This document shows positions 7,840-39,020 of a DNA stretch of 64,000 bases, one piece after another. Both the position numbers and the translations under genes were made by a program. Source of the stretch: Methanoculleus formosensis (GTDB lineage Archaea; Halobacteriota; Methanomicrobia; Methanomicrobiales; Methanoculleaceae); contig NZ_VHLL01000001.1 of assembly GCF_025384765.1 (NCBI RefSeq), forward strand, positions 186,001-250,000. The letters are read 5' to 3'. The notes under the pieces are model-generated. The model made no database searches. It saw only the letters and a program-made list of their open reading frames with translations, and was not told the DNA's origin. The stretch's first letter is position 1. Each line of letters starts with the position of its first letter.

Positions 7840-8757
7840 TTCGTCGGGCTCGATATGGACGACGACCTCCACGAGCCCCGGCACCGCCTCTTTGAGCCGC
7901 CGCTCCACCTCGTCGGAGATCGCATGGGCCCCGGCGACGGGGAGGGCCGGGTCGACGGCGATGTGGATGTCGGCGAGAATCTCATCCGGTTTTCCCCGGC
8001 ACCGAAAGTCATGGTATCCTGTCACCCCCGGGACGTCCATCACCACCACATCGATGAGCGCCGGGTCGCAGGGGAGGTCCATCATGTCGGTGAGAACCTG
8101 TGCGGCGTCGTAAAGGATCGAGAGTCCCATCCTCGCGATGAGGAGGCCGATGGCGAAGGCGATGAGCGGGTCGGCCGCCGGGAACCCGAGCCTGACGGCA
8201 AGAAACCCGCCGAGGACGGCGATCGAGACGAAGACGTCGCTTCTCGTGTGCTGGGAGTCGGCGATGAGGATCTGGCTCTGGTACTCCTCTCCCTTCCGCC
8301 GTTCATAGGTGGATACGGCGATGTTGATGACGAGCGTCGCGAGCATGACCCCGACGGTGACGGAGGTGATATCGGGGGCGACGGGTTCGATGAGCCGCTC
8401 ATATCCTTCATAAAGGATCCCGGCGGCGGTCAGGAGGAGCATCGCCCCGATGACCAGGGTCCCGAGCGTCTCTATCTTGCCGTGACCATAGGGGTGTTCG
8501 GGGTCGGGAGGTCTCCCTGCGAAGTGGAGGGCGACTAACCCGACGACGTTCGAGAAGGAATCGAACCCCGAGTGGACGGCGTCGGCCACCATGCTCACCG
8601 ACCCGGCGAGGAGGCCGAAGACCGCTTTGGCGAGTGCGACAGCGAGGTTCAGGGCGAGGACGATGAGAAATATCCGCCGCACCTTCCGGCCGGTCGCACC
8701 CGTATCCTTCCGGTCTTCTCGTTCTCCAGGCGTTCCGCCCAGCCCGACCTGCATCAA
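7831..8757 (-). CDS. Cation diffusion facilitator (CDF) family metal exporter
   Basis: 308 residues with six membrane segments followed by a cytoplasmic domain. The transport-site pairs HxxxD are seen in VADAVHSGFDSFSNV (helix 2) and IADSQHTRSDVFVSI (helix 5). The conserved HPYGHGKIETLG block lies in the loop after helix 2. CDF proteins export Zn2+, Mn2+, Fe2+ or Co2+ in exchange for protons. An Asp instead of His in the second position of each pair suggests Mn or Fe rather than Zn preference, but this is inference. The cytoplasmic tail (from about residue 215) has HIAVD and the VVHIEPDE ending typical of the dimerising domain. Start may be the first or second Met (MMQVG). Confidence 0.93.
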   Translation of the reverse strand: MMQVGLGGTPGEREDRKDTGATGRKVRRIFLIVLALNLAVALAKAVFGLLAGSVSMVADAVHSGFDSFSNVVGLVALHFAGRPPDPEHPYGHGKIETLGTLVIGAMLLLTAAGILYEGYERLIEPVAPDITSVTVGVMLATLVINIAVSTYERRKGEEYQSQILIADSQHTRSDVFVSIAVLGGFLAVRLGFPAADPLIAFAIGLLIARMGLSILYDAAQVLTDMMDLPCDPALIDVVVMDVPGVTGYHDFRCRGKPDEILADIHIAVDPALPVAGAHAISDEVERRLKEAVPGLVEVVVHIEPDESP

Positions 8758-8840
8758 CCCGGGGTGGGTGCTCCGGCGAGATAGGGTTTCCGGAGGAAGA
8801 GCTGAAAGGTTTAATACGCGCGTCCCACAATGATCTTTTT

Positions 8841-9341
8841 ATGCCGACAGATGAGAACGCTCAGAATGCGTACGCCGGGGAATCCCAGGCGAACAGAAAG
8901 TACTCGGTCTTTGCAGAGAAAGCAGCCGCCGAGGGATATCCCGCGGTGGCGAAACTCTTCCGTGCGGCAAGCGAAGCGGAAGCCGTCCACGCGAAACGCC
9001 TTCTCTTCATCCTGAACGCCGTCGGGAGCACCGAAGAGAACCTGAAAGGTGCGATGGAGGGGGAGAATTATGAGTTCATGGAGATGTACCCTCCGTACGT
9101 CGCCGAGGCGAAGACCGAGCGGAAGAACGAGGCCGCAATCGTCTTCACCCACGCCATGAAGGCCGAAGAGGTGCACGCGAACCTCTACCTCCAGGCGCTC
9201 GAGTCCGTCCGGGAAGGAAAAGACCTCGACGTAGAGAAGATCTTCCTCTGCCCGGTCTGCGGCAACGTCGAACTCGGGGCAGCGCCGGAGAAGTGCCCGA
9301 TCTGCGGGGTTCCGGCACGGATGTTCCGCGAAGTCCAATAA
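8841..9341 (+). CDS. Rubrerythrin
   Basis: 166 residues. The N-terminal four-helix bundle contains the diiron ligands in YAGESQANRKY, EAEAVHAKR, KTERKNEA and KAEEVHANLY, and the C-terminus has the rubredoxin-like site CPVCGNVELGAAPEKCPICG. Rubrerythrins are cytoplasmic peroxidases that reduce H2O2 in anaerobes with electrons passed through the C-terminal FeS4 centre. The gene is monocistronic, divergent from the CDF exporter, with start ATG at 8841. A T-rich run after the stop (about 9349-9355) may end transcription. It belongs functionally with the peroxiredoxin operon at 5719-7109 and the rubredoxins at 46979-47529. Confidence 0.96.
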   Translation: MPTDENAQNAYAGESQANRKYSVFAEKAAAEGYPAVAKLFRAASEAEAVHAKRLLFILNAVGSTEENLKGAMEGENYEFMEMYPPYVAEAKTERKNEAAIVFTHAMKAEEVHANLYLQALESVREGKDLDVEKIFLCPVCGNVELGAAPEKCPICGVPARMFREVQ

Positions 9342-9432
9342 TACCCCTTCTTTTCGATCCGGTCTCGCCGTGGCCGGGGTCGCTGCACCGCACCCCCGTA
9401 AGTTAAATACTCTTCCCGAGATATCTCCTCTC

Positions 9433-10617
9433 ATGGCAGGCGTTAAGGTCTACACGACGGAGAACTGCCCTTACTGCCGGATGGTTCAGGCGTTCCTCCG
9501 AAAACACGACGTCGAGTTCGAGCTCGTCGACGTCGGGAAGGACCGCGAGGCGGCCCGGGAGATGATCGAGATCTCGGGGCAGCGGGGGGTTCCGGTCACG
9601 ATCTCCGGCGATGAGGTGGTCGTCGGGTTTGATGCAAAGCGGCTCCGCGAGCTCTTCGGGAAACCGCCTGAGGAGCTGGTCCACGACGCGGTCATCGTGG
9701 GCGCCGGTCCGGCAGGGTTGACGGCAGCGGTCTATTGTGCCCGCAAACTCATGAGAACCGTCGTCGTAGCGGAGAACGTCGGCGGCCAGGCGGCCTGGAG
9801 CTGGACGATCGAGAACTATATGGGTTTTTCAACGATATCGGGCGAGGAACTGATCAAGAAGTTCGAGGAGCAGGTCCGGGGGTTCCAGGTTCGTCTCGAA
9901 CTCGAGAGTGTCGAGGAGGTCCGCAAAGAGGGTGAGGTATTCCTCACCCGGACGCCCTCGGGAACTGTCTACCGTTCCCGGACGCTCATCCTCGCCCCGG
10001 GAAAGGAGCCCAAGAAACTGGGGCTTTTGGGTGAGGATCAGCTGATGGGGAAGGGGGTCTCGATCTGCGCCATCTGCGACGCTCCGCTCTATCGCGGTAA
10101 ACCGGTAGCCGTCGTCGGCGGTGGAAACGCAGCGTTCCAGACCGCGCTCGAGATGAAGAAGTTCACGGACTCGGTGACCCTGATCGTCCGGAGATCCCTC
10201 CGTTGCGACGAGGTCTACATCGAGCGTGCAAAAGAAGCGGGGATACGGATCCTCCCCCACCACGAGGTGACGGCGCTGCACGGGGACGCGGGCCTGACCG
10301 GGATCACGATCCGCGACCGCGAGACCGGGGAGGAGACGGGCCTCGACGTTGACGGTCTCTTCCTCGCGATCGGGCTTGCGCCGAACACCGGGTTCCTCAA
10401 AGGCCTGGTGGCGCTGAACGAGCAGAACGAGATCCTCATCGACGAGAACGGCCATACGAGCGTTCCCGGGGTCTTCGCGGCCGGGGACGCGACCTGCGTC
10501 AAGGCCAAACAGATCATCGTCGCGGCCGGTGATGGGGCGAAGGCGGCGCTCGAGGCGCACGAGTACTTTGAGGAACTCACGGGCAGGCCGACCGAGGAGC
10601 AGACCGTCTGTAGGTGA
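9433..10617 (+). CDS. Glutaredoxin-thioredoxin reductase fusion protein
   Basis: 394 residues. Residues 1-80 are a glutaredoxin/NrdH-like domain with active site CPYC (12-15) and the cis-proline loop GVPVT. Residues 85-394 are a thioredoxin reductase-like FAD enzyme: GAGPAGLTAAVYCARK binds FAD, CAIC (212-215) is the redox-active pair, VVGGGNAAFQTA binds the nicotinamide nucleotide and GVFAAGDAT is the C-terminal FAD motif. The two arginines in VRRSLR fit NADPH binding. The fusion likely moves electrons from NAD(P)H through FAD and CAIC to its own CPYC. ATG at 9433 follows an AT-rich AGTTAAATAC at about 9401. Bacterial and archaeal fusions of this sort are known but uncommon. Confidence 0.93.
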   Translation: MAGVKVYTTENCPYCRMVQAFLRKHDVEFELVDVGKDREAAREMIEISGQRGVPVTISGDEVVVGFDAKRLRELFGKPPEELVHDAVIVGAGPAGLTAAVYCARKLMRTVVVAENVGGQAAWSWTIENYMGFSTISGEELIKKFEEQVRGFQVRLELESVEEVRKEGEVFLTRTPSGTVYRSRTLILAPGKEPKKLGLLGEDQLMGKGVSICAICDAPLYRGKPVAVVGGGNAAFQTALEMKKFTDSVTLIVRRSLRCDEVYIERAKEAGIRILPHHEVTALHGDAGLTGITIRDRETGEETGLDVDGLFLAIGLAPNTGFLKGLVALNEQNEILIDENGHTSVPGVFAAGDATCVKAKQIIVAAGDGAKAALEAHEYFEELTGRPTEEQTVCR

Positions 10618-25854: not shown

Positions 25855-26232
25855 ATGGTTAAAAAACTCTTTGACAGCATCCTCGGCAAAAGTCCCGCCC
25901 GGAACGAAGAGGACTACATGGAGCTCGATCTCGCCTCCTATGAGGGATCGGGCAACGAAGAGCCGGCATCCATGTACATCAAGATCGCCACCATCGCCGA
26001 TCTCAAAGATACTCCCCGCGTCAAAGACGAAGTTTACAACGGTAATATCGTCATCGTCGACATCGGGCGGCTGAAGATGGACAAGGTGACGTTCGAGCGG
26101 GTCTTAAAGGATCTCCGCGACGTGGCAAAGGACGTGAACGGCGACATCGTCGGCCTCGGCGAGCAGAAGTACGTCGTCATCACGCCGATGTCCGTCAAGG
26201 TCTCCCGCGAGAAGATCGGTGGGGGCCTCTAG
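25855..26232 (+). CDS. sepF: Cell division protein SepF (archaeal)
   Basis: 125 residues. N-terminal amphipathic helix MVKKLFDSILGKS is the membrane-targeting sequence, followed by an acidic linker and the SepF core YIKIATIADLKDTPRVKDEV, GNIVIVDIGRLKMD and GLGEQKYVVITPMS. Archaeal SepF anchors FtsZ to the membrane at the division site. Length fits archaeal forms. An AT-rich zone (AAATAATAGATACTATTAAAT, read in 25808-25830) just upstream is the likely promoter. The stop TAG shares its G with the GTG start of the ZPR1-type gene, a pairing common in Euryarchaeota. ftsZ is not in this window. Confidence 0.96.
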   Translation: MVKKLFDSILGKSPARNEEDYMELDLASYEGSGNEEPASMYIKIATIADLKDTPRVKDEVYNGNIVIVDIGRLKMDKVTFERVLKDLRDVAKDVNGDIVGLGEQKYVVITPMSVKVSREKIGGGL

Positions 26233-26759
26233 TGCAGGAGTCCCATCCGGGAACCTGCCCCGCCTGCGGGAACGAGATCCGGATCGTCCATCACCGTCTT
26301 GAGATCCCCCACTTCCCGGACCTCCTGCTCGTGGCAATCGCCTGCGAAGCCTGCGGCTACCGGCACACCGACACCATCATCCTCGGGGAGGGCGACCCCG
26401 TCCGGTGGACGGTGCGGGTGGAGGAACCCGGCGACCTTGCCATCCGGGTTGCGCGGAGCACGACGGGGAAGATCGAGATCCCGGAACTCGGTCTTCTGGT
26501 CGAACCCGGCACCGCCTGCGAGGGATTCGTGACCAACATCGAAGGGGTCCTCGCCCGCTTCGAACAGGCATTGGGGGCGGTCCTTGCGAACCCCGAGAGC
26601 GAAGACGAGCGGTCGGCCGCACTCAGGATGATGGAGACGATCGCCGCCGCACGGGAGGTGGCCTTCCCGTTCACGGTCATCCTCGATGACCCCGCCGGGA
26701 ACAGCGCGCTCGTCAGCAAGAAAGCCGAGAAGATGCCCCTCGATCAGGGAGAAACCTGA
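26232..26759 (+). CDS. ZPR1-type zinc finger protein
   Basis: 175 residues, GTG start at 26232. The four-cysteine zinc ribbon CPACGNEIRI ... CEACGYRHTD spans residues 9-44, followed by the ZPR1 beta domain (STTGKIEIPELGLLVEPGTA, FVTNIEGVLARFE). It corresponds to a single ZPR1 module; eukaryotic ZPR1 has two and acts as a chaperone of elongation factor eEF1A. The archaeal protein may serve EF1A similarly, but that is inference. It is translationally coupled to sepF. Confidence 0.93.
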   Translation: MQESHPGTCPACGNEIRIVHHRLEIPHFPDLLLVAIACEACGYRHTDTIILGEGDPVRWTVRVEEPGDLAIRVARSTTGKIEIPELGLLVEPGTACEGFVTNIEGVLARFEQALGAVLANPESEDERSAALRMMETIAAAREVAFPFTVILDDPAGNSALVSKKAEKMPLDQGET

Positions 26760-27239: not shown

Positions 27240-27719
27240 CTACAGCCCGGCTCTCCTGAGCATCGGCCGGACCTCGGCGCCTTCCATGTTTCCCGCCGCC
27301 CAGGTGTAGCGCTCCCGGATACCGGGCGGGAGGTCGCGTTCCGGTATCGAGATGAACCCGAACCCCGCGTAGAACCCGGCGAGGCTCTCGACCGCGTACA
27401 TGTAGAGGTCGTCGTTGTGGCAGGCCACAACAAGAGCGTTCATCGCCATGCGGGCATACCCCTGCTTCCGGCAGGCATCGGGCGTGAAGACGCCGTCGAC
27501 CTCCAGGCCGTCGGGATGCCTCCTGCACCGGGCGAGAGAGACGATCTGCCCTGCAAGGAAAGTCGCGAAGATCCGGTCCCGTGCGGGATCGCCGGTTGTG
27601 CCGTGGTAATCGCGCCAGACCTCGTCCGCGGCGGGGAACTCCGCGCTCGTCAGTTCACGAACCTCCGGCCGGACTCCTGATGTCGCCGTCCCGTTTCCTG
27701 TAATTACAGCCGTTGTCAT
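27240..27719 (-). CDS. GNAT family N-acetyltransferase
   Basis: 159 residues from ATG at 27719; GAGGTGA sits five bases before it, preferred over an earlier GTG. The acetyl-CoA binding region is VDGVFTPDACRKQGYARMAM (Q/R-x2-G-x-G/A loop as RKQGYA), preceded by RDRIFATFLAGQIVSLARCR and followed by AVESLAGFYAGFGFISIPER, the usual C-terminal beta bulge. Substrate unknown. It is the last gene of the leftward chemosensory block, ten bases after the PAS kinase stop, so it may be cotranscribed with the sensors; whether it modifies one of them is speculation. Confidence 0.85.
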   Translation of the reverse strand: MTTAVITGNGTATSGVRPEVRELTSAEFPAADEVWRDYHGTTGDPARDRIFATFLAGQIVSLARCRRHPDGLEVDGVFTPDACRKQGYARMAMNALVVACHNDDLYMYAVESLAGFYAGFGFISIPERDLPPGIRERYTWAAGNMEGAEVRPMLRRAGL

Positions 27720-27729
27720 CCCGATCACC

Positions 27730-29136
27730 TCACACCACCCGGTATCCCTCGGACGGCACCAGGATCTCGAACCTCGCTCCCGTCCCGAACGTTCCGGTCT
27801 CGCGGATCGCGATCCCGGTGATGGCCAGTATCTCGTGGGCGAGGAAGAGCCCGTGCCCGTAACTCTCCGCCTTCTGCACGAAAAGACCTTCTTTCTCCGT
27901 CTCGGGGATACCGGTCCCGTCGTCTTCGACGATGATGGCGCACCCCTCCGGGCGCAGGTGGTAGGTGACGACGATCCTCTCCGCCTTCGTCGCCGGAGCG
28001 AGCGAGTTCTCGAAGAGGTGGGTGAAGACCGTCGCGAGATGGGGGTCGGCGAAGATCTCGAGGCGCTCCGTCCACGCCTCGAGGGAGACGCCCCCGAAGG
28101 AGAGGTTGGCGGCTCCCTTCCTGACGGCCTGCTGCACCGGGATCCACGCCGGCGGCGACGTCCCGATGTCGCGGAACTCGCGGGAGATCTCGATCTGCCG
28201 CCGGATCCCGTTCGCGGCGTTGTTCAGGTCGTCGATGAAGGAGAGGACCGCGGGGTCGTCGAACTTCATCACGCCCAGCGAGAGATGCCCGTACAGGACC
28301 GCGAGCCGGTTCGCGAGGTCGGTGCGCAGGATCCCCGTGAGGGTGCTCAACTGGCGGCTGGCGTTCTGCAGTGCGGCCTCCGTCATCACCTCGTCGCTGA
28401 CGTCCCGGATGGACTCGATGGCCCCCGTGACCTTTCCCTGCCGGTCGAGGAGCGCGGTCGCCGCGAACCTGATGTGCGCCCCCCGCCTGCTCCTGAGAAG
28501 GGGGGTGTAGACCTCCGCGACGAGGACGTCGCCGTCCCTCCTGACCGACGGGTACCCGTTCTCGGGATCGCCGTGGAGGATAAGGTCTGCAAGCACCGGC
28601 CGTGCCTCACCGTAGAAGGGCACGGCGTACTCGTAGTCCCCCCGGCCGAGCATGGCCTCTTTCTTCACCCCGGTCATCTCCTCGATCGCGCGGTTCCAGG
28701 CGATGACTCTTCCCTCGCGGTCGATGGCGAAGGTCGCGTCGGGCAGGAACTCGATGATCTGGTTCATCTGCTGCTCCGACTCACGGAGTTTCGCTGCGAG
28801 GAACGCGACCACGCCGCCGATGAGAACGAGGAGGATCGCGCGCAAGAGGATGGTGTACGCGAGCAGCGGGCCCGGCGGAGAGAGGAGGTAGGTCGTGACG
28901 GCGTAGACCGCTCCGAAGCAGACGGAGAAGAGGATGCCCCGCCGCGGGTACCAGTAGCTCGCGAGGATGATCGGGATGGTGAGCGGGAGGGTGGGGAGGG
29001 GAAGGAGGCTCTCCGGTGTGCCGATGACCATGGCGAGCAGGTTCCCGCCGAGGGTCAGTGCGGCCAGCCCGGCGATAAGCGCGGTGCGGTTGCGCGCATC
29101 AGCGACGAACGTGGTCAGGATGTCGGTGATCTTCAT
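27730..29136 (-). CDS. Membrane PAS histidine kinase-like protein without phosphoacceptor His
   Basis: 468 residues. Four or five membrane helices (about 18-113), then a PAS domain (125-250), a dimerisation region and an HATPase domain (about 330-465). The HATPase boxes are intact: FTHLFENSLA (N box), IIVEDDGTGIPETE (G1) and ESYGHGLFLAHEIL (G2). In the dimerisation helix the sequence is LRTDLANRLAVLYGH; the neighbouring kinase has TRHDLLNQLAALWGY. The position of the phosphoacceptor His is Thr272 (codon ACC, 28321-28323). It may bind ATP without autophosphorylating, or act as a partner of the adjacent kinases. It follows the receiver-kinase gene by 28 bases. Confidence 0.88.
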   Translation of the reverse strand: MKITDILTTFVADARNRTALIAGLAALTLGGNLLAMVIGTPESLLPLPTLPLTIPIILASYWYPRRGILFSVCFGAVYAVTTYLLSPPGPLLAYTILLRAILLVLIGGVVAFLAAKLRESEQQMNQIIEFLPDATFAIDREGRVIAWNRAIEEMTGVKKEAMLGRGDYEYAVPFYGEARPVLADLILHGDPENGYPSVRRDGDVLVAEVYTPLLRSRRGAHIRFAATALLDRQGKVTGAIESIRDVSDEVMTEAALQNASRQLSTLTGILRTDLANRLAVLYGHLSLGVMKFDDPAVLSFIDDLNNAANGIRRQIEISREFRDIGTSPPAWIPVQQAVRKGAANLSFGGVSLEAWTERLEIFADPHLATVFTHLFENSLAPATKAERIVVTYHLRPEGCAIIVEDDGTGIPETEKEGLFVQKAESYGHGLFLAHEILAITGIAIRETGTFGTGARFEILVPSEGYRVV

Positions 29137-29164
29137 GAGGGGAACCTGCGGTTATCGTCCTCGG

Positions 29165-30487
29165 TCATTCGGTCTGCCGGTCGGGAGCGCGGATCGTCGT
29201 TGCCGGACAGAGGATCTCGAACCGCGCTCCGCTCCCCGGGGTCCCCGTCTCCCGGATGGTGATCCCGGTTATGGCCAGGATCTCCCGCGCGAGGAAGAGG
29301 CCGAGCCCGGTGTTCATGCCGTGCGCGTAGGTGAAGATCTTCTCCTTCTCGTCGGCAGGAATCCCTACCCCGTCGTCCTCACAGAGGAGGGTGTACGCCT
29401 CCCCATCCTGTTTGAGGCTGAAGGTGATGGTGGTGGCCGTCTCCCCGTAACGCAGCGCGTTCTCGATAAGGTTCGAGAAGACCTTCTCGATGAGCGGGTC
29501 GGCGAAGATCTCCACCCCCGCCGGAACGGCGTTCTCAAGGGTGATCTTGCCCGTCGAGATGTAGTTCTTCGACCGCTCCACAAGCGTCCTGATCTCCTGC
29601 CAGGTCGGAGCCGTCGACCCCACCTTCTGGTACTCGGCTGTAAACCGGACGGTGTTGTTGATCCGGTTCACCATCTCGGCAGCGCTATCGACATGGCGCC
29701 ACGCGTTTGCCGGTTCCCGCTCGCGCAGTATCTGGGCGAGATCCAGATACCCCCAGAGCGCCGCGAGCTGGTTTAGGAGGTCATGGCGGGTGATGCTCGC
29801 CATGAGCTGGAGTTTTCGGTTGGCGTCCGCGAGCGCTTTCTCCACGCGCCGCCGTTCCTGGTTCTCGGCGGCAAGGCTCTCGTTGCTGCGCGAGAGATCC
29901 GCTACGGCGTCCTGGAGTTGTTCGTTCACGGAGTGCAGCTGCTCCTGAGCCTCCTGGAGTTCGGTGTTCTTCGTCACCGCGATAGTATACGTCGAGAGGA
30001 GGGTGTTCAGGATCTTGAGTCGTCCTGCGGCGATGGTATAGGTGCTGCCGGCGAAGGGGATCTCCAGTTCAGCGGGAGAGTCTTCGGGCTCAGGGATCTC
30101 CCGCACCCGCATGACGGCCTCGATCTGGGAGCGGACGTGCTCCGGGTCGACGGGTTTCACGATGAAGTTGTCCGCTCCCGATGCAAGCCCTTTCAGCACG
30201 TCGGCGGGATCGAAGAGGCTGGTGACCATGATGACGGGTGTATCCGGGTTCTGCTGCTTGATCCGGCGGCAGAGTTCGTACCCGTCCATCCCGGGCATCA
30301 TGATGTCGGTCAGGACGATATCGGGCATATCGACTTCCATCCGTCGTATCGCCTCAGTGCCGTCGGCTGCCAGGGTGACGTCATACCCTTCCGTCTCGAG
30401 GACGTAACGGATGAACTCGGCCTGCGTCCTGCTATCCTCTACCACCAGAACGCTCATCTTCGTTCTTCCTTTCTGTTTCTCTTCCAT
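29165..30487 (-). CDS. Receiver-histidine kinase hybrid protein
   Basis: 440 residues. Receiver domain at about 11-128 with the acidic pair in VVEDSR, phosphoacceptor Asp61 in VLTDIMMPGMDGY, the Thr in IMVTS and Lys in FIVKPVDP. A coiled coil (about 170-230) leads into the dimerisation helix MASITRHDLLNQLAALWGY with His235, then the HATPase domain with FSNLIENALRYG, LLCEDDGVGIPADE and NTGLGLFLAREIL. Such REC-HK proteins can be fed phosphate by another kinase through the receiver. It starts one base after the cheA stop, so they are cotranslated; CheA is the obvious input, by inference. No output DNA-binding domain. Confidence 0.92.
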   Translation of the reverse strand: MEEKQKGRTKMSVLVVEDSRTQAEFIRYVLETEGYDVTLAADGTEAIRRMEVDMPDIVLTDIMMPGMDGYELCRRIKQQNPDTPVIMVTSLFDPADVLKGLASGADNFIVKPVDPEHVRSQIEAVMRVREIPEPEDSPAELEIPFAGSTYTIAAGRLKILNTLLSTYTIAVTKNTELQEAQEQLHSVNEQLQDAVADLSRSNESLAAENQERRRVEKALADANRKLQLMASITRHDLLNQLAALWGYLDLAQILREREPANAWRHVDSAAEMVNRINNTVRFTAEYQKVGSTAPTWQEIRTLVERSKNYISTGKITLENAVPAGVEIFADPLIEKVFSNLIENALRYGETATTITFSLKQDGEAYTLLCEDDGVGIPADEKEKIFTYAHGMNTGLGLFLAREILAITGITIRETGTPGSGARFEILCPATTIRAPDRQTE

Positions 30488-30488
30488 G

Positions 30489-32798
30489 TCATCGCTCCTC
30501 TCTCTCGTTCTCGCGGCGGCGCAGCAGGCGCTGGACTATCCGGAGAAACTCTTCCGCTTCGAAGTTCTTCTTGACGATATATGCATCCGCCCCGACCGCC
30601 TTTCCCCGCTCCCGGTCTTCCGGTGAACCGAGCGACGTGACCAGCATCACCAGGGTAGCGGCGACCTGTCCTTCATTGGCCCGTATCTTCTCGGTGAGCG
30701 TAAAACCGTTCATCCGGGGCATATCCACATCTGAAACGACCATATCGAACTCATGCTGCTTAAGCCTTGCGAATGCGTCGATCCCGTCGACAGCGGTCTC
30801 CACCTGATATCCGGCCCCTTCAAGTATCGCCTGCAGGAGGGCGCGTGACGTGACCGAGTCGTCGACGACCAGGATCCGCTGCAGCGCCGCCTGCGGGAGT
30901 GTGGGTTCAGGCACCGGCCGTTCCGCCTGCATCGCGTCCTGGATCAGTTCGAGAGGGTCGAGGACGAGCGCCAGGCGTCCGTCTCCGAGGGTCACGGCCC
31001 CGTCGATCCTCCGGACAGAGATGAGCTGGCTGCCGAGCGGCCGGACGACGATCTCCTGCACCCGGATCACCTCGTCGACCAGGCACGCGATCTGCCCGGC
31101 CCCGTATGCGATGATGACGAGGGGTTTTGGCCGGTTCTCCTCCTTGGCGGGGCCGGACGGGGAGATGCCCAGGGCCTCGGTGAGCCGGATGACCTCGATC
31201 GTCTCCCCTGCGAGGTAGATCGTCGGTCGCCCCTTCGATATGGGCAGGGAGTCCGGGCGAACCCGGAGAACCTGTTTCACCTGCTGCATCGGGAGGACGT
31301 AGGCCTGCCGATCAGAGCGAACGAGCAGCCCGCGGAGGGTGGCCATCCTCACCGGGACGGTCAGGGTGATCGCCGTTCCCCTGCCGACGGTCGAGGATAT
31401 CGTCACCGTTCCCCCGAGACGGGAGACGGTGTCCTCCACGATCGCGAGCCCGAGCCCCCTCCCCGAGAGATCGGTGACGACCCGGCTCGTGGTCATCCCC
31501 GAGCGGAAGATGAGCCAGATCGCCTCGCTGTCCGTGAGGGCTCTATCCTCCTCCTCCGTGATCACGGCGTTCTCGACGGCGGTCCTCCGGATCGAGCTGC
31601 TGTCGATCCCGGCGCCGTCGTCGGCCACCTCGATGCCGACCCTGCTCCCCGACCGGTGGAAGACCCGGATCCGCACGGTGCCCATGACCGGTTTCTGCTG
31701 CTCTCTCCTGGCTTCAGGGCTCTCGATGCCGTGATCGATGCTGTTGCGTATCAGGTGCATGATGGGATCCTTCAACGCATCAAGGATACGCCGGTCGACC
31801 TCGATCTCGCCCCCCTCGATCGCGAGATCGACGGATTTTCCCGAGGTGCGGGAGAACTCTCTCACGAAGACGGAGAAGGGGGCGAGCATGATTGACGTCG
31901 GGAGCAGCGCGGCATCGTGGATGAGGTCGGAGATCTCGGATGTGCTCGTCTCGAGTGTCGATCTGTTGATCTCCATGGAACGCAGGTGCATGGAGATGTC
32001 GTGCTGGAGGCCGGCTACGAACTCGCGGTTGTACTCCTGGAACTCGACCGCCCGCTGGAGCGGCAGGACAAGGTCGTGAGGGATCGCTGCCCTTCCCTCC
32101 CCGAAGGCTCTCCTGCTGATCATCTGCAGGTCGTTGAACGCCTGGGAGTAGTTCCATTGCCAGAGGGAGAAACTGGTCAGCATCTCCTCGAGCTCGCGTA
32201 TCCTCTGCGTGATGAAGAGCCGGGTCGTGAGGAGGCTGTCGGCCCCGGCGGTGAGTCGGTCGAGTTTGTGGGCGGCGATCCGCACCATGCCCCGGTCTGC
32301 TCCCTGCTCGCCGCCGTTGTAGGGCCACGGCGTCTCGGGCGCGTGACTCCTCTCCGGGGCCGGACCCGGGCCGGCGGTCTTCTCCTTCTGAAGGATGCCC
32401 CATGCCGTCTCCTTTCCTCCAGGGATGGCCCGGAGCGCCGCGTTGATCTCCGCCGGCGAGGTCTCGGGCCGCTCTCCCCGGAGGAGGCTCTTTATGACCG
32501 CGATTGCCCGATGGAAGAGGTCGAAGTCGTCCGCTCCCGGGAAGTACTCGCTCCGCTTCACAAGTGAGAAGACGGTCTCGATGTTCTGGCAGATGGACTC
32601 GATCTCCCGGAGGTTGACCGCGCGCGACGCCCCTTTCAGGCTGTGAACCGTCCGGTAGATCTGCTCGACCAGTCCGGGCGTCGGCCCGGCCTTCTCGAGC
32701 GCAATCAATCCCTCGGTGATCTCTTCAAGGTGCCCGTCCGCCTCCTCGCGAAACGTCTCGAGGAGACGGACACGAAATACGTCGTCCGGTCCGGTCAT
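30489..32798 (-). CDS. CheA histidine kinase fused to a C-terminal receiver (CheA-REC hybrid)
   Basis: 769 residues. HPt domain with His52 in TVHSLKGASRAV; a long middle region with a dimerisation segment (about 170-300); HATPase with LIRNSIDHGIESPEARR, GIEVADDGAGID and SGRGLGLAIVEDTV; a CheW-like domain (about 490-630); and a receiver (about 645-765) with VVDDS, phosphoacceptor Asp in MVVSDVDMPRMNG and KK in YIVKKNFEAEEF. The layout resembles FrzE/CheAY of alternative chemosensory systems rather than the separate CheA and CheY of archaellar taxis. It follows the MCP gene by 11 bases and is followed by the receiver-kinase gene. Confidence 0.94.
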   Translation of the reverse strand: MTGPDDVFRVRLLETFREEADGHLEEITEGLIALEKAGPTPGLVEQIYRTVHSLKGASRAVNLREIESICQNIETVFSLVKRSEYFPGADDFDLFHRAIAVIKSLLRGERPETSPAEINAALRAIPGGKETAWGILQKEKTAGPGPAPERSHAPETPWPYNGGEQGADRGMVRIAAHKLDRLTAGADSLLTTRLFITQRIRELEEMLTSFSLWQWNYSQAFNDLQMISRRAFGEGRAAIPHDLVLPLQRAVEFQEYNREFVAGLQHDISMHLRSMEINRSTLETSTSEISDLIHDAALLPTSIMLAPFSVFVREFSRTSGKSVDLAIEGGEIEVDRRILDALKDPIMHLIRNSIDHGIESPEARREQQKPVMGTVRIRVFHRSGSRVGIEVADDGAGIDSSSIRRTAVENAVITEEEDRALTDSEAIWLIFRSGMTTSRVVTDLSGRGLGLAIVEDTVSRLGGTVTISSTVGRGTAITLTVPVRMATLRGLLVRSDRQAYVLPMQQVKQVLRVRPDSLPISKGRPTIYLAGETIEVIRLTEALGISPSGPAKEENRPKPLVIIAYGAGQIACLVDEVIRVQEIVVRPLGSQLISVRRIDGAVTLGDGRLALVLDPLELIQDAMQAERPVPEPTLPQAALQRILVVDDSVTSRALLQAILEGAGYQVETAVDGIDAFARLKQHEFDMVVSDVDMPRMNGFTLTEKIRANEGQVAATLVMLVTSLGSPEDRERGKAVGADAYIVKKNFEAEEFLRIVQRLLRRRENEREER

Positions 32799-32809
32799 GG
32801 CAGGTTGTG

Positions 32810-35242
32810 CTAGACCCGGTACTGCTGGGTGATCCTCTTCAAGCGGGCACCGAGCTCGTGCAGGTCCTCGGCGGTCTTCTCCGCCTTACGGGTAGTTTCG
32901 AGATTCTTCTGCGCCGCATCCCGGATGTTCTCCATCGCGCGCGAGATCTGGTCGACCCCGGAGGCCTGGGTCTGGATCGAGGAGGCGATCTCGATGACCT
33001 CCTGCGAGGAGTCTGCTATCGACCGGGCGAGCACCTCTATCGCCTCCTGGGCATTATTCGTCAGCCGGACCGCATCCGAGACGGACCGTATCCCCTGCTC
33101 GGTCGAGACCGCGGTCGAGGAGATTCCCTGCTGGATATCGGTGAGGATGGCCCGGATGTTCGACGTCGCTTTCTTCGACTGTTCGGCGAGGTTATGGATC
33201 TCGTTCGCGACGACGGCAAACCCTTTCCCGAACTCTCCGGCCTTTGCAGCCTCGATGGAGGCGTTCACCGCGAGCAGGTTCGACTGTTCGGAGATGTCGG
33301 TCACGGTCGCGATGATCTCGCCGACGGCCTGGCTCTGCTCGGAGAGCCGGATGACGTTCATCCGGACGATGTCCATCTCCCGCTGGATCTGGTTCATCCC
33401 CTCCAGGATCTCACGCACGGACTTCTGGCCGTCCTTGGAGACGTCGAGCGCCCGTATCGCCTTCTCCGAGACGCCTTTCGTCTTCTGGTTCACCAGTTCG
33501 GTCTTCTTCCTGACGCTCTCGACCGAGTCCGATGTCTCGTTCACCGTTGCAGCGGTCTGGGAACTGGCGGTGGAGAGCTGGGTCGTGACCGCCAGGATCT
33601 CGTTCGATGCGAGCGAGAGGACCGAGACGCCCTCGTAGAGTTCCTCGCTGATCAGTTTCATCAGCCGCGAGAGTTCGATGCCGATGGTGTTGAGGGCATC
33701 GCGGTAGGCGACGAACTCGCCGGCGACCGGGATCTTCTCGTCGAACCGGGCGGTAAAGTCGCCGGAAGCGTAGAATCGCGCAAGCCGCATCGCTTCGTTC
33801 ACCGGTTCGGTGATCGACTCAAGGGTCTTGTTGAACCCGGCGATGATCATCCGGTAGCCGCCGCGGAACGCCTTCTCATCGCCGCGGATGGAGAGGTCGC
33901 CCGCCCGGGCGGCATCGGTGAGTTTGAGCGTCTCCTTGTGGAGATGGTCGAGCGACTGGACCATCATCGCGAGCGCGGGGCGGATCTCGTCGCCCTCGTC
34001 GGCGACCGGGAACTCCCGGACGTACTCGCCGAGAGCGATACTCTTCAACTTCCCGACGACGTTCGTCTGGAGGTCGCCGGCAAACTCGTCCATCATCGCG
34101 GCCATGACCCCGATCTCGTCCTGTCGCTTGATGTTGAGCCGGGCGGAGAGGTGCCCGCTCCGGAGCTCATTGAGCATCAGCACGACCTGCTGCAGGGGTT
34201 CGGAGATCGAGCGGCCGAAGAGGATGGCGATGGCGACGCCGAGGGCGATGGATGCGAGGACGACGAAGACGATGGTGTTTCTGATCGTGTCTATCGGCCC
34301 GGTGAAGTCGGAGAGCTCGGCACGCGAGACGATGTGCCAGTCGAGCGGTTCGAAGTAGGTGTAGGCGTCGATAATATCCGTTCCGTCGACCTGGTGGCGG
34401 ATGATGCCGACCTTATTCGCGATCATCTCCTGGACATAATCCTCGGCGGCTATGTTCTCCCCTTCCTGGGACGGGTGCACGAGCAGCTGGCCGTTGCTGT
34501 CGACGACGAACATATAGCCGTTCTGGCCGATGACCGTCTCCTTGAGGCTCGTTTTGACGACGTCGAGCGTCTCCTGCTCCTCAGTCCCGACGAAGAGAAC
34601 GCCGACGATATTCCCGCGGCTGTCCTTTATCGGCTCGTATGCCGTGACGTAACGCTTGCCGAAGAGATCCCTGCTCCCGTAGTAGGTCTCCCCCTGGTTC
34701 ACCACGACGTCGTAGACGTTCTGGGTCAACTCCGTCCCGACAGCCCGGCTGCCGTCGGTCCCGATGACGTTTGTGGAGACCTTGATGGCGTTGTGGTCAT
34801 AGACCTGGAATACCGTCGCCGCCCCACCGACCAGGGACTGCACCTGGTCGACGATCTCGAAGTTATCGTTGATGATGTACGGCTCGCCGGTGCCGTCCAC
34901 CAGGGTCAGTTTCCCGTCGATGACCTCGGGGGTGCCCCGCGCGTAGAAGTTCTCCCGGAGGACGTTGAGGTCGCTGTTCACCTTATTGCGCGTCAGTTTA
35001 TAGACGTCGTTCGTCCATCCCCGCGCGTCGTGCACCTGCGTCTCGAGCAGCGTCTCGATCTGATCGTTGATCACACCGCTCGAACTGCTATATGCTACTA
35101 TGCCGAGCACAAGCGTCGGGATGATCGCCAGAAATAAGCAGATGACGAGGATCTTCGTCCCGACCTTCATGTCTGAAAAAAATGCGAACACGTTACTCCC
35201 GTTCCACTCGCTCTTGTACGACGACTTAATAGAGTGATGCAC
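32810..35242 (-). CDS. Methyl-accepting chemotaxis protein (Cache sensor, HAMP, signalling domain)
   Basis: 810 residues as drawn, but the start is uncertain. A TATA-like TTAAATAAT (minus strand) at about 35257 would put transcription below 35242, and a GTG at 35191 ([14 protein letters not shown]) or the ATG at 35170 is likelier. First membrane helix [20 protein letters not shown], then a large outside Cache domain (about 50-320: [31 protein letters not shown]), second helix [23 protein letters not shown] regions, and the cytoplasmic hairpin whose tip reads [20 protein letters not shown]. It senses an external small ligand and signals through CheW to CheA. Confidence 0.93.
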
Positions 35243-35321
35243 ATCCGGGGTTAAATAATGTTCCGTTCCGTTAATGACGCTCCAGGGCTTCCGTTACCCA
35301 TAATGAGCGTATATCTCCGGT

Positions 35322-36299
35322 TTATTTCCGCGTCTGGTCGATCACCATCCCCGGGTCGGCGAGGATCGCGGCCGCGTCGAGGACGATCACCGTTCCATCT
35401 ATGACGCCCAGGAGGTAACGCTGCTCGATAGGCGTTGTGCCGGGCTCTACGGGGGTGAACGGGTCGGTCGGCCGGATGTAGATGTCCGTGATGTAGTCTG
35501 CAAGGATTCCGAACGTCACCGTCCCGTCGGTGAGAACGATGACCCGGTTGAGGTCGGTCAGGCCCTGCTTTGGGATCGAGAAGAGTGCGCGGAGATCGAC
35601 GATGGAGATGATCTCGCCCCTGACGGCAGAGATCCCGACGATGAAGTCGGGAACCCCGGGAACCGGGGTGACCTCCTGCATGATAAAGACCTCGCGGATG
35701 TACTGCGTCTTGATGGCGTACTCCTGGTCGGCGAGTCTGAATGTGAGAAGTTCCGAGAACGGAGTCTCACGTCCTCCCTCCCCTGCCCGTGCAACCGCCC
35801 GCGCCCGGTCTGCGAGGATCGCATCGGCCCTTTTGGCGTCGTGAGACGATATCGGCCGCCCGGTCTCGGCCATGCCGGGCGGGAGGGGGTACTGCGCGGT
35901 CTCTTCCGCTGCAAGGAACGCGCCGAGATCGTAGATGATGATCACCCCTTCTTCGGTCAGCAGTGCGCCGGGAGGGGTGGCGGCGCCGGGAGGAAGTTCG
36001 ACCGGACTCTCCTGCACTCCGCGCACTCCGTCCGCCCAGAGAGCCACGCACTCGCCGGGGGGGTAAGCGATGATGAGGACGTCGGAGGGGAGAGGAGGGC
36101 GGTCGGCGAGCCCGAGAAGGCTCCTGAGCGAGTAGACCGGGACGGTTCTGCCGTGCAGGTTCATCGTTCCCGCTCCCCCGCGGCGTTTACCGGTCTCCGG
36201 CCGGAGTTCCACCATGCCGACAACCTGCCGGATATTGGCAAGCGGGAGAGCGCAGGGTATCCCCTCGACGGTAAAATACAGGAGGTGCGGGCGGTCCAT
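35322..36299 (-). CDS. Double CheW-domain coupling protein
   Basis: 325 residues from ATG at 36299. A TATA-like TTTTATCC (minus strand, about 36325-36334) lies upstream and would exclude a GTG start at 36320. Two CheW domains: the first (about 3-140) with YFTVEGIPCALPLANIRQVV and GTMNLHGRTVPVYSLRSLLG, the second (about 180-322) with LTFRLADQEYAIKTQYIREV and GISAVRGEIISIVDLRALF. Tandem CheW proteins link MCPs and CheA into arrays. It heads the chemosensory block, 80 bases before the MCP gene. Confidence 0.92.
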   Translation of the reverse strand: MDRPHLLYFTVEGIPCALPLANIRQVVGMVELRPETGKRRGGAGTMNLHGRTVPVYSLRSLLGLADRPPLPSDVLIIAYPPGECVALWADGVRGVQESPVELPPGAATPPGALLTEEGVIIIYDLGAFLAAEETAQYPLPPGMAETGRPISSHDAKRADAILADRARAVARAGEGGRETPFSELLTFRLADQEYAIKTQYIREVFIMQEVTPVPGVPDFIVGISAVRGEIISIVDLRALFSIPKQGLTDLNRVIVLTDGTVTFGILADYITDIYIRPTDPFTPVEPGTTPIEQRYLLGVIDGTVIVLDAAAILADPGMVIDQTRK

Positions 36300-36334
36300 G
36301 GATGTTCGATGGTTGGTCACGTGCGGATAAAAGG

Positions 36335-37216
36335 TTACGGGGATCGGAGCCCCTCGAGGTCGATATTCCCGTTCGAGGTGGTGACGGCGATCGTCGGCCC
36401 CCCGCTGCCGAGCGTGCCCGCCATCCGGGTCCCGGACGACTCAGTGAGCAGGAGCGGGAGATCGTCTGCCGTAACCCTGCCGTTTGAGGTGGTGGCGACC
36501 ACCCGGATGTCGAGGTCCCTCGCGAACCGGAGCGTTATCCGGCTGTTTGAGGTGGTGATCGCTGCGTCGCCCCGGACGGCAGGGATATCGGCCGAGATCG
36601 GGCCGTTCGAGGTCTGCAACCCGAGAACCCCCCCGGAGTCCTCCACTGTGATCCCGCCGTTGCTGGTCATTGCGGTGACGTAGCCTTCGAGACCCCGGAC
36701 CTCGATCGGCCCGTTCGAGGTGGCTGCCGTGATATCCCCGCCGGGAGCGCCGCCGACCCGTATGGGGCCGTTCGATGTCCGGATTTCTGTTCCGTTCACC
36801 CGCACCCCCGAGAGACCAATCCTGCCGTTCGAACTCTCGGCTCTCTGCAGGAGAACGGTGGGGGGCACCTCTATCGTATAGTCGACGCTCACCCGCGGGT
36901 TCACCCCGGTCTGCACCGTCTCTATCCTGAGGGGATCGCCCTCCGTCACCTCGATCCGGACCTGATCGAGTTCCCCCTGGCCGTAGATGGACCGTTTGAC
37001 CGCACGGACGGCGACGGTCTCCCCCTCCCGGACACTCACGTCCACGTTCCCGTCCCGGTTGATCACGGCGATGCCGCTCTCCGGCGCCACCGTGACCGTC
37101 CGGTTGAACTCCTCTGTTGTCTCGGGGCCCGGCACCCCGACACACCCGGAGAGGACGACGGCGAGGGCCAGCACCGCGTAGGCGGTTCGCTGCATGGTCA
37201 TCCACTCTGCCTTCAT
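36335..37216 (-). CDS. DUF4097-type beta-repeat lipoprotein
   Basis: 293 residues. Signal sequence with lipobox-like VVLSGC (about residue 25), so probably lipid-anchored outside. The rest is a parallel beta repeat: the tetrad TSNG (or SSNG/TSNS) appears eight times with spacing 18-21 residues and one double-length gap, each followed by short beta strands (GPIRV, GPIEV, GGITV, GPISA). This is the DUF4097/adhesin-like fold. It follows the ABC exporter genes by 12 bases. Bacterial members often sit with ABC-2 exporters or anti-sigma systems of the cell envelope; function is unknown. Start could be Met1, Met6 or Met8. Confidence 0.85.
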   Translation of the reverse strand: MKAEWMTMQRTAYAVLALAVVLSGCVGVPGPETTEEFNRTVTVAPESGIAVINRDGNVDVSVREGETVAVRAVKRSIYGQGELDQVRIEVTEGDPLRIETVQTGVNPRVSVDYTIEVPPTVLLQRAESSNGRIGLSGVRVNGTEIRTSNGPIRVGGAPGGDITAATSNGPIEVRGLEGYVTAMTSNGGITVEDSGGVLGLQTSNGPISADIPAVRGDAAITTSNSRITLRFARDLDIRVVATTSNGRVTADDLPLLLTESSGTRMAGTLGSGGPTIAVTTSNGNIDLEGLRSP

Positions 37217-37228
37217 GGGAGATTACCC

Positions 37229-38065
37229 TTACGTCACGACCGCCTTCTCAAACGTCCACCGGGCAAGGAGATACATCACCGCTGCAAAGACTGCCAGGTA
37301 CGCGAACGATCCGAGGACGTCGGCCGTGGTGGAGGTGTAGTGGGCGCCGACGGCGAAGAAATCACTTCCGAGGGCGAAGTAGCGGATCCCGTTGACCAGG
37401 TGGGTCAGGGGGTTATAGACCGAGAGCGCCTGCAGGAGCGGCGGGAACGCCTGGATCGGGTAGAGGGCGTTCGAGACGAAGAAGAGCGGCAGGGTGAGGA
37501 GCGTCATGATCCCCTGCAGCCCTTCGGGGCTCTCGAGGCGCATCGAGATGGCGGAGGAGAAGAGGAGGAACCCGAGCGAGAAGGCGGCGACGAAGGCGAA
37601 TATGCCGAGGATCGAGAGGGCGATCCGGGTGGCCGAGTACCCCGGGAAGAACTGCACCCCGAGGAGGAGGCCGAAGGCCATGATGATGGAGACCTGGATG
37701 AACGACTTCGTCATCCCCGAGAGGCTGACCCCGAACATAATGTGCGTCCGGGGCATGGGGCTCGCGAGCATCTCTCGCATCAGCCCCCAGTTCTTATCGA
37801 AGAGGAGGCTCATTCCTCCGAAGAGGCTCGTGAAGAGGGTCGTCATCGCGATCACCCCTGCGGCCATGAAGGTGAGGTAGTCGAGGGGGATGACGCCGGC
37901 CGGGGCCGGGATGGCGGAGGCGAACCGGTCGAGGTTCGAGGACATCGCGACGCCGAAGAACGCCATCCAGAGCGCCGGCTGCAGGAGCGACGAGAAGAGC
38001 TGCGCCCTGAACCTGACGAACCGGATCATCTCCCGCCAGTAGACGGTAAGGAACTCCCATGCCAC
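37229..38065 (-). CDS. ABC-2 type transporter permease
   Basis: 278 residues with six membrane segments, beginning with the cytoplasmic stub FLTVYWREMIRFVRFRAQLF and ending in a short basic tail. The central region GGMSLLFDKNWGLMREMLASPMPRTHIMFG is the usual ABC-2 cytoplasmic loop (positions about 83-112), and SSAISMRLESPEGLQGIM is the second conserved segment. Permeases of this class export drugs, lipids or polysaccharides. It starts four bases after the ATPase stop and forms one transporter with it. Substrate unknown; the accompanying lipoprotein hints at an envelope role. Confidence 0.93.
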   Translation of the reverse strand: MAWEFLTVYWREMIRFVRFRAQLFSSLLQPALWMAFFGVAMSSNLDRFASAIPAPAGVIPLDYLTFMAAGVIAMTTLFTSLFGGMSLLFDKNWGLMREMLASPMPRTHIMFGVSLSGMTKSFIQVSIIMAFGLLLGVQFFPGYSATRIALSILGIFAFVAAFSLGFLLFSSAISMRLESPEGLQGIMTLLTLPLFFVSNALYPIQAFPPLLQALSVYNPLTHLVNGIRYFALGSDFFAVGAHYTSTTADVLGSFAYLAVFAAVMYLLARWTFEKAVVT

Positions 38066-38069
38066 CCGT

Positions 38070-39020
38070 TCACGCCCCCGTATCGCGCAGTTCCCTTCCG
38101 GTATAGTGGACGAAGACGTCGTCCATCGTCGGTTTCTTCAGGTTCACGCTCGATATCCCGATCCCTGCACTGCGCACCGCATCAATGATCTTCGGGATGC
38201 ACTGGCTCCCGTCGGCCGAGATCGCGATCGAGAGGCCGCGGGTCGAGTCCGTGACCGACCGGATCTCCTCGATCCCCGAGAGGGCATCCCTGACCCTTCT
38301 GTCGTCCTCGGTCTCCAGGTAGACGACGTCCTCGCCGAGAGCGTTCTTCAGTTCGGCCGGGGTCCCGGTGACGACGATCCTGCCGTGATCGATGATGCCG
38401 ATCCGGTCGGAGAGGATGTCGGCCTCCTCCATGTAGTGCGTCGTCAAGAATATCGTCGTCCCGGCCCCGTTCACCTGCCGGATATACTCCCAGATCCGCA
38501 TCCGCGTCTGGGGATCGAGCCCCTGCGTCGGCTCGTCCAGGAAGAGCACCTCGGGCCGGGTCATCAGGCCGCGAGCGATCTGGAGCCGCCGTTTCATGCC
38601 GCCGGAGAGGTTCTTCGTCCGCTCGTCCCGTTTGGACTCAAGTTCGACGACCCGGAGCAGGTCGTCGATCTGGGCCCGCCGTTCTTCCCGGGGGATGCTG
38701 TAGAGCCGGCCGTGAAACTCCATCGTCTCCTGGACGGTGAGATCCCGGTCGAGCACGTCGTCCTGGAAGACAATGCCGATCGCCTTCCTGACCTCCCCGG
38801 CCTCCCGTGCGACGTCGTATCCGGCCACGTGCACCCTGCCTTTCTGGAGAGGGAGGAGGGTCGTCAGGACATTGATGGTGGTGCTCTTCCCCGCACCGTT
38901 CGGGCCGAGGAAGGAGAAGATCTCGCCTCTCCTGACCGTGAAACTGATGCCGCGAACCGCCGCGAAGTCGCCGAACAGGTGTTCGAGGTCTCGCACCTCG
39001 ATGATATCGTCCCCTTCCAT
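38070..39020 (-). CDS. ABC transporter ATP-binding protein (DrrA/NodI type)
   Basis: 316 residues. Walker A LGPNGAGKSTTINVL, Q loop IVFQDDVLDRDLTVQE, signature LSGGMKRRLQIARGL, Walker B VLFLDEPTQGLDPQTR and switch His in IFLTTHYMEEAD. A C-terminal DUF4162-like domain (about 230-305) fits the DrrA subfamily, which pairs with ABC-2 permeases for export. First gene of the operon ATPase-permease-DUF4097 lipoprotein. The 345-base gap upstream probably holds the promoter. Confidence 0.95.
   Translation of the reverse strand: MEGDDIIEVRDLEHLFGDFAAVRGISFTVRRGEIFSFLGPNGAGKSTTINVLTTLLPLQKGRVHVAGYDVAREAGEVRKAIGIVFQDDVLDRDLTVQETMEFHGRLYSIPREERRAQIDDLLRVVELESKRDERTKNLSGGMKRRLQIARGLMTRPEVLFLDEPTQGLDPQTRMRIWEYIRQVNGAGTTIFLTTHYMEEADILSDRIGIIDHGRIVVTGTPAELKNALGEDVVYLETEDDRRVRDALSGIEEIRSVTDSTRGLSIAISADGSQCIPKIIDAVRSAGIGISSVNLKKPTMDDVFVHYTGRELRDTGA

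Follow-up and report, generated by a model that had tools for sequence, protein, structure and literature searches.

A chemosensory gene block lacking its own adaptation enzymes in Methanoculleus formosensis, with an acetyltransferase as a candidate output

What does a chemosensory gene block do when it carries neither adaptation enzymes nor a free response regulator of its own? This question is raised by a locus in a stretch of 64,000 nucleotides from the archaeon Methanoculleus formosensis (NCBI RefSeq assembly GCF_025384765.1, contig NZ_VHLL01000001.1, positions 186,001 to 250,000), which we call the window. At window positions 27240-36320, on the minus strand, the list of open reading frames (ORFs) and Pfam give six genes, for a double CheW protein (CheW2), a Cache/HAMP methyl-accepting chemotaxis protein (MCP), a CheA with a receiver (CheA-REC), a receiver-histidine kinase hybrid (REC-HK), a PAS kinase-like protein and a GNAT acetyltransferase. 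The features that carry the argument are as follows.

35322..36320, minus strand: CheW2, 332 aa; Pfam CheW 4.2e-42 in two stretches, read as two coupling domains
32810..35242, minus strand: MCP, 810 aa; Pfam Cache_3-Cache_2, HAMP, HAMP_2 and MCPsignal hairpin
34277..35086, minus strand: Cache_3-Cache_2 ligand-binding region of the MCP, aa 53-322; PF17201 8.3e-74
34733..34783, minus strand: putative carboxylate-binding residues K154, T157 and T170 of the MCP, matched by spacing to R142, T145 and T158 of the receptor PacF
30489..32798, minus strand: CheA-REC, 769 aa; Pfam Hpt (H52), HATPase, CheW and receiver (D690)
29165..30487, minus strand: REC-HK, 440 aa; N-terminal receiver (D61) and DHp/HATPase (H235); Pfam REC 1.1e-31, HATPase 2.6e-16
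27730..29136, minus strand: PAS kinase-like protein, 468 aa; hydrophobic N-terminus, PAS, degenerate DHp, and HATPase with N/G boxes, from Pfam
27240..27728, minus strand: GNAT, 162 aa; Pfam Acetyltransf_1 4e-6

The gaps between these genes, from CheW2 to GNAT, are 79, 11, 1, 28 and 1 bases. The initial annotation had described six adjacent leftward genes with these domains, and no cheB, cheR, cheC, cheD or free CheY among them. All six ORFs are present with agreeing Pfam domains, and the ORFs and Pfam likewise give none of those genes, nor any other free receiver gene, within the block. These findings support the view of the block as a coherent, non-canonical chemosensory unit that carries neither adaptation enzymes of its own nor a DNA-binding output. 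The CheW2 gene is kept in nearly all relatives having enough upstream sequence; its longest ORF opens at a GTG at 36320, with an ATG at 36299, seven codons inside, as an alternative start; the boundary in the initial annotation is this ATG. In CheA-REC, H52, the ATP boxes and the receiver Asp are conserved in 26/26 aligned orthologs, and nearly all REC-HK orthologs retain the receiver Asp and the DHp His. The kinase parts of REC-HK and the PAS kinase-like protein share about 41% identity. The latter keeps its ATP-binding boxes and has Thr272 at the position equivalent to His235 of REC-HK, and the earlier label of pseudo-kinase is right for this species. Across relatives this position is T, I, N or H, and phosphorylation of the PAS kinase-like protein stays possible in the several relatives that retain the His.

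The block is not peculiar to one genome. By a hand count, CheA-REC proteins of the same type (about 43-45% identity or more) occur in about 59 of 199 genomes of the order Methanomicrobiales. Gene order is kept at 43-88% CheA identity in Methanoculleus, Methanoregula, Methanocalculus and other lineages, as CheW2, MCP, CheA-REC and REC-HK, followed in most cases by the PAS kinase-like gene and GNAT. The same order recurs in five of the six sampled families, which is more than chance. In a CheA-REC tree made by a quick method with midpoint drawing, its rows being only the relatives found in this analysis, the Methanomicrobiales block forms a clade of 42 rows (SH-aLRT 100), with the window genome placed among Methanoculleus. 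An adjacent cheB or cheR is found at none of the 38 named clade loci, some of which lie on short contigs, compared with 41 of the 42 outgroup loci. The outgroup includes many bacteria, ANME-2 (anaerobic methanotrophic archaea), Methanoperedens and second copies in Methanospirillum. Its order is typically cheR-cheW-mcp-cheA-cheB, and in the clade REC-HK fills the cheB position. Since the archaeal outgroup loci L160, L163 and L192 have a REC-HK homolog beyond cheB, the most parsimonious reading is a loss of both cheR and cheB, with REC-HK ending up beside cheA. The block is a clade-specific system of Methanomicrobiales, and would be derived from one that bore cheR and cheB.

CheAs with a receiver belong mostly to the F3, F5, ACF (alternative cellular function) and Tfp classes (PMC10782961). 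CheA-REC has the ACF architecture, namely Hpt, kinase core, CheW and C-terminal REC, with no P2 domain detected in the Pfam scan. The ACF class also has its own CheR and CheB in the cluster, and these are absent from the clade loci (0/38). Judged from sequence, the best reading is that the block encodes a variant of an ACF-like pathway without its own adaptation enzymes. As a separate observation, at locus L201 (G006, 8057-9805) one open frame joins the MCP sensor/HAMP region to the kinase end of REC-HK and CheA-REC is missing, which could reflect a bypass that arose naturally, gene decay or faulty assembly.

How might such a pathway work? The initial annotation pointed to the FrzE and Wsp systems, in which a CheA-receiver fusion serves an output beyond simple flagellar chemotaxis. 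Wsp acts through a response regulator that is a diguanylate cyclase, and adaptation enzymes are part of both systems, whereas the block has neither feature. The analogy holds loosely, and the Che3 system of Rhodospirillum centenum (CheA3/CheS3/CheY3, for cyst formation) is closer. There, one cluster also encodes a CheA with a C-terminal REC and a separate kinase with an N-terminal receiver; of the two receivers, that of CheA3 is a phosphate sink and that of the CheS3 kinase is phosphorylated by CheA3 (PMC3868531). The output of Che3 is not motility, which is likewise proposed for the block. However, Che3 has CheB3 and a CheY-type output, whereas the block lacks cheB, cheR and CheY and has a His-less PAS kinase-like protein and GNAT. 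Bacterial and ANME cheR-cheW-mcp-cheA(REC)-cheB clusters (L155-L197) resemble the block in their CheA-REC (35-40% identical), surrounding order and MCP arm length, but they keep cheR and cheB, and GNAT was not found there. The Methanosarcina che2 region (PMC2666748) is similarly a second archaeal che region without CheF (DUF439), but that paper describes no REC-HK/PAS-HK/GNAT arrangement. We found no published description of the operon in the open-licence literature.

We tentatively propose, with slightly less than even confidence, a pathway specific to Methanomicrobiales that arose from an ACF-type system, lost its own CheR and CheB, and runs from the Cache MCP through CheA-REC and REC-HK to a PAS kinase-like/GNAT output. 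The membrane Cache_3-Cache_2 MCP, most likely a sensor for formate or another small carboxylate, would control CheA-REC through CheW2, and this array would be separate from the motility array. Phosphorylated CheA would pass phosphate to two receivers, its own, as a sink, and that of REC-HK; we draw the phosphate flow in this way because of the analogy with R. centenum Che3. REC-HK would then control the PAS kinase-like protein, with which it shares homologous DHp and ATPase domains, possibly through a mixed dimer or a REC-gated contact. The PAS kinase-like protein would position or gate GNAT, and GNAT would acetylate a protein or metabolite as the output. Everything past gene content is what we infer, including the ligand, the direction of phosphate flow, the contact between the two kinases, the acetylation output and its substrate. 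A more specific form of the proposal, in which a formate-sensing array with no dedicated methylation adaptation drives lysine or N-terminal acetylation via the pseudo-histidine kinase and GNAT and so couples formate to metabolism or stress-protein control, seems to us somewhat unlikely.

The ligand is suggested by the sensor domain. By phmmer, the solved structures closest to the Cache region are 8py1 (1.8e-13) and 8py0 (2.8e-11). Both are also among the best Foldseek matches of the Cache model (pLDDT 78), and these sCache entries are titled as complexes with formate. The Cache_3-Cache_2 receptor PacF binds formate, and binding is affected by R142, T145 and T158 (PMC12501870). The register of the corresponding triad in the MCP is set by spacing. 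The pattern Arg/Lys-x2-Thr-x12-Thr has both Thr residues in 58/58 sequences and Arg at the first position in 55/58, with Lys found solely in the entries from this genome. PacF of Pectobacterium, McpF of Pseudomonas syringae and the 8py0/8py1 proteins resemble the MCP in their Cache_3-Cache_2 or sCache sensor, with the Thr residues and the key Arg position matching by spacing (PMC12501870). However, PacF and McpF feed flagellar chemotaxis, and for the block sensor, with Lys in place of Arg, formate binding is a prediction.

Gene neighbourhoods of the relatives bear on the same question. Formate dehydrogenase (fdh) genes lie upstream of the block and codirectional with it in four genomes (L269, L270, L278/L107 and L279/L113; fdhAB), with a carbonic anhydrase gene in between at L269. 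At L151/L114 fdh is convergent beside CheA-REC, and at L154 fdhA is about 4 kb away. These are six relatives, against a rough chance expectation of about 0.5-0.9 under assumed numbers; among the 42 outgroup loci, mostly from non-methanogens, there is no such linkage. Coming from related genomes and rough numbers, the fdh linkage is suggestive only. The MCP likely senses a small carboxylate such as formate, and formate itself is a plausible ligand, a prediction that is cheap to test with the purified sensor domain.

At the other end of the pathway, the evidence suggests that the acetyltransferase is the best candidate output. GNAT has R87-K-Q-G90-Y-A at the position of the acetyl-CoA motif, which is (R/Q)xxGx(G/A) in GNATs (PMC6434083), and R87 and G90 are invariant in 22 sequences. 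Foldseek with its AlphaFold model (pLDDT 83) returns the GNAT fold, with RimI, GCN5 and ElaA nearest, a set of matches that leaves the substrate unfixed. By sequence, it has chance-level matches only among solved structures, and no match in NCBIfam. At 16 of the 19 clade loci sampled first, GNAT stands behind the PAS kinase-like gene or is fused to it; the first sample had GNAT at 16 of 20 loci, from which L065, outside the clade, was dropped. Of the 38 named clade loci, 22 have GNAT, and at five of these it is fused in frame to the PAS kinase-like protein; such fusions occur in at least seven genomes overall. GNAT is present at none of the 42 outgroup loci. At 19 further GNAT sites in the order, 16 are adjacent or fused to a PAS kinase-like gene, or are a USP-USP-GNAT fusion (USP, universal stress protein) beside one. 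The family occurs in 47 of the 295 sampled genomes of the phylum, every one in Methanomicrobiales. This order-wide linkage and the gene fusions support counting GNAT, as the initial annotation did, as a true part of the unit.

Acetyltransferases go unmentioned in a census of archaeal two-component systems. A known parallel in regulation is in actinobacterial GNATs with cNMP or ACT domains, which also stand under a linked sensory domain; one of them, MsPatA, may acetylate a universal stress protein (PMC6434083), and USP-GNAT fusions occur in Methanomicrobiales. In contrast, GNAT of the block belongs to a distinct family, and its partner is a histidine-kinase-like ATPase that follows a chemosensory array. 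Three further observations concern GNAT genes. On contig C3 of the same genome (L098:4809-7421) a second PAS kinase-like gene is followed by a USP-USP-GNAT fusion; many Methanomicrobiales have this pair, possibly as a separate module for stress signalling. At L056/L129 (G160) a TruA-type pseudouridine synthase stands at the GNAT position, and GNAT is on another contig (L115) beside its usual Methanoculleus flanking genes. Several Methanoregula genomes also have, no more than about 8 kb from the block, a further and more distant paralog of GNAT (44-47%; L099:16066, L101:135, L113:18272).

Several observations weigh against the proposed pathway, and we consider them together with the alternatives on which they bear. 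For the ligand, the window species has Lys at the Arg position (codon 34781-34783), which is species-specific, and its genome has three fdhA genes elsewhere and no fdh gene near the block. The triad was also rejected as a formate-specific signature, since most other archaeal Cache_3-Cache_2 proteins sampled, including those of other families of the phylum, carry it; it supports a carboxylate-binding family and not formate alone. We give not much less than an even chance to the pathway as described with something other than formate as its ligand, be it acetate, a different carboxylate or not a small molecule at all; this reading overlaps our preferred explanation and does not exclude it. This fits the spread of the triad through other archaeal families, the Lys of the window species and the diversity of dCache ligands, but among solved sensors those nearest in sequence are formate complexes, and fdhAB adjoins the operon in several relatives.

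For the later steps, CheW2-MCP-CheA-REC-REC-HK is kept without PAS-HK/GNAT in Methanospirillum and at some other loci, and GNAT is not obligatory in the block. The PAS-HK/GNAT pair is also found without che genes and may have its own input. At L144 and L154, REC-HK is cut to 286-289 aa with no HATPase match, which suggests that some species can do with only the receiver. The locus could accordingly be two neighbouring modules, one running from CheW2 to REC-HK with another output, the other a PAS-HK/GNAT sensor-effector pair that is independent and shares only the transcript. The PAS protein has a predicted sensor domain of its own, the che part stands alone in Methanospirillum and others, and the pairs and fusions away from che genes are often PAS-HK plus USP-USP-GNAT. 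However, a PAS-HK/GNAT subgroup is linked to che genes over several families, mostly at short spacing and with fused forms in the same position, and its kinase part is homologous to that of REC-HK, which suggests physical pairing. We regard two modules as unlikely, but still as a serious alternative.

The last point against the proposed pathway comes from the rest of the genome (2.65 Mb, 19 contigs, 99% complete): canonical CheR, CheB and CheY are present in the same cell and crosstalk is possible. There is a single cheR gene, together with two genes each for MCP and CheA. On contig C6, cheY-cheB-cheA-cheC-cheD and a CheF-like gene lie near archaellum genes, and contig C3 carries a PAS-MCP with cheW and cheR, gene names outside the window being taken from translations and from family matches for CheR, CheW and MCPsignal. 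The initial claim of no adaptation enzymes thus stands for the block and not for the genome. The search that the initial annotation called for, for cheB, cheR, cheY and archaellum genes, reveals a complete set, which it had named as grounds against its reading if the set served this MCP. The set is found with another MCP of different hairpin length and with archaellum genes, and is not shown to serve the block MCP. The arm after the hairpin tip is exactly 150 aa in the window MCP and 21 orthologs (22/22), compared with 165 in the canonical MCP of this genome. Because the canonical arm is 15 residues longer, about two heptads, the two MCPs are likely in separate arrays. Most outgroup CheA-REC systems have an MCP arm of the same shorter length as the block MCP. 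By arm length, the block MCP would be 40H-like and the canonical one 44H, the dominant archaeal type in a published survey (PMC9680633).

Could the block then be an accessory input to taxis, with its array feeding canonical CheY and the archaellum and its receptor adapted by canonical CheR and CheB? The complete cheY/B/R/C/D set beside archaellum genes would allow it, free CheY is diffusible, and attraction to formate or acetate is sensible for a methanogen. We consider it rather unlikely, though still a serious alternative, given the shorter MCP arm, a CheA-REC without a detected P2 (CheY-docking) domain, and the dedicated REC-HK that is conserved instead. The block MCP also has no canonical methylation motif in the expected regions, whereas the canonical MCP has several; as proof of no adaptation this was rejected as weak, since relatives bearing cheR and cheB also show few. 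The QQ/EQ pair at about tip+98, common in outgroup MCPs, reads TQ in the window MCP. Genomes with the block but without cheR or cheA were sought to judge independence from the canonical set, and the candidates were fragmentary. That GNAT replaces methylation, acetylating the MCP, CheW or CheA as adaptation after loss of CheR and CheB, is very improbable: cheR/cheB absence and GNAT presence do coincide in the clade, but GNATs of this family also occur together with PAS-HK or USP domains where no MCP is nearby, and clade members without GNAT also lack cheR and cheB.

The block is flanked by the following genes, with names read from translations.

36335..39020, minus strand: DUF4097-like protein, ABC-2 permease and ABC ATPase, upstream and codirectional
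25855-26759: SepF-like gene and a neighbour, convergent beyond GNAT

The upstream genes have gaps of 4, 12 and 14 bases and adjoin most Methanoculleus loci but not those of other genera; they are possibly in the same transcription unit as the block, though not part of its core. The SepF-like gene and its neighbour are found in this position in many Methanoculleus loci.

The components of the block are ordinary and their assembly is unusual. To the initial annotation, our analysis adds the likely ligand class (small carboxylate/formate), the probable ancestry from a system bearing cheR and cheB, and the wider occurrence in the order of the PAS-kinase/GNAT pair as a module. The usual end point of a chemosensory pathway is a response regulator that acts on a motor, a cyclase or DNA. 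A kinase-like/GNAT terminus, if true, would be a new type of chemosensory output, and through the order-wide GNAT family archaea would have a route from signalling to the control of acylation. Formate is a main electron currency between syntrophic bacteria and Methanomicrobiales. A dedicated formate sensor, near fdh genes in some relatives, would, if true, explain how these methanogens are tuned to their partners.

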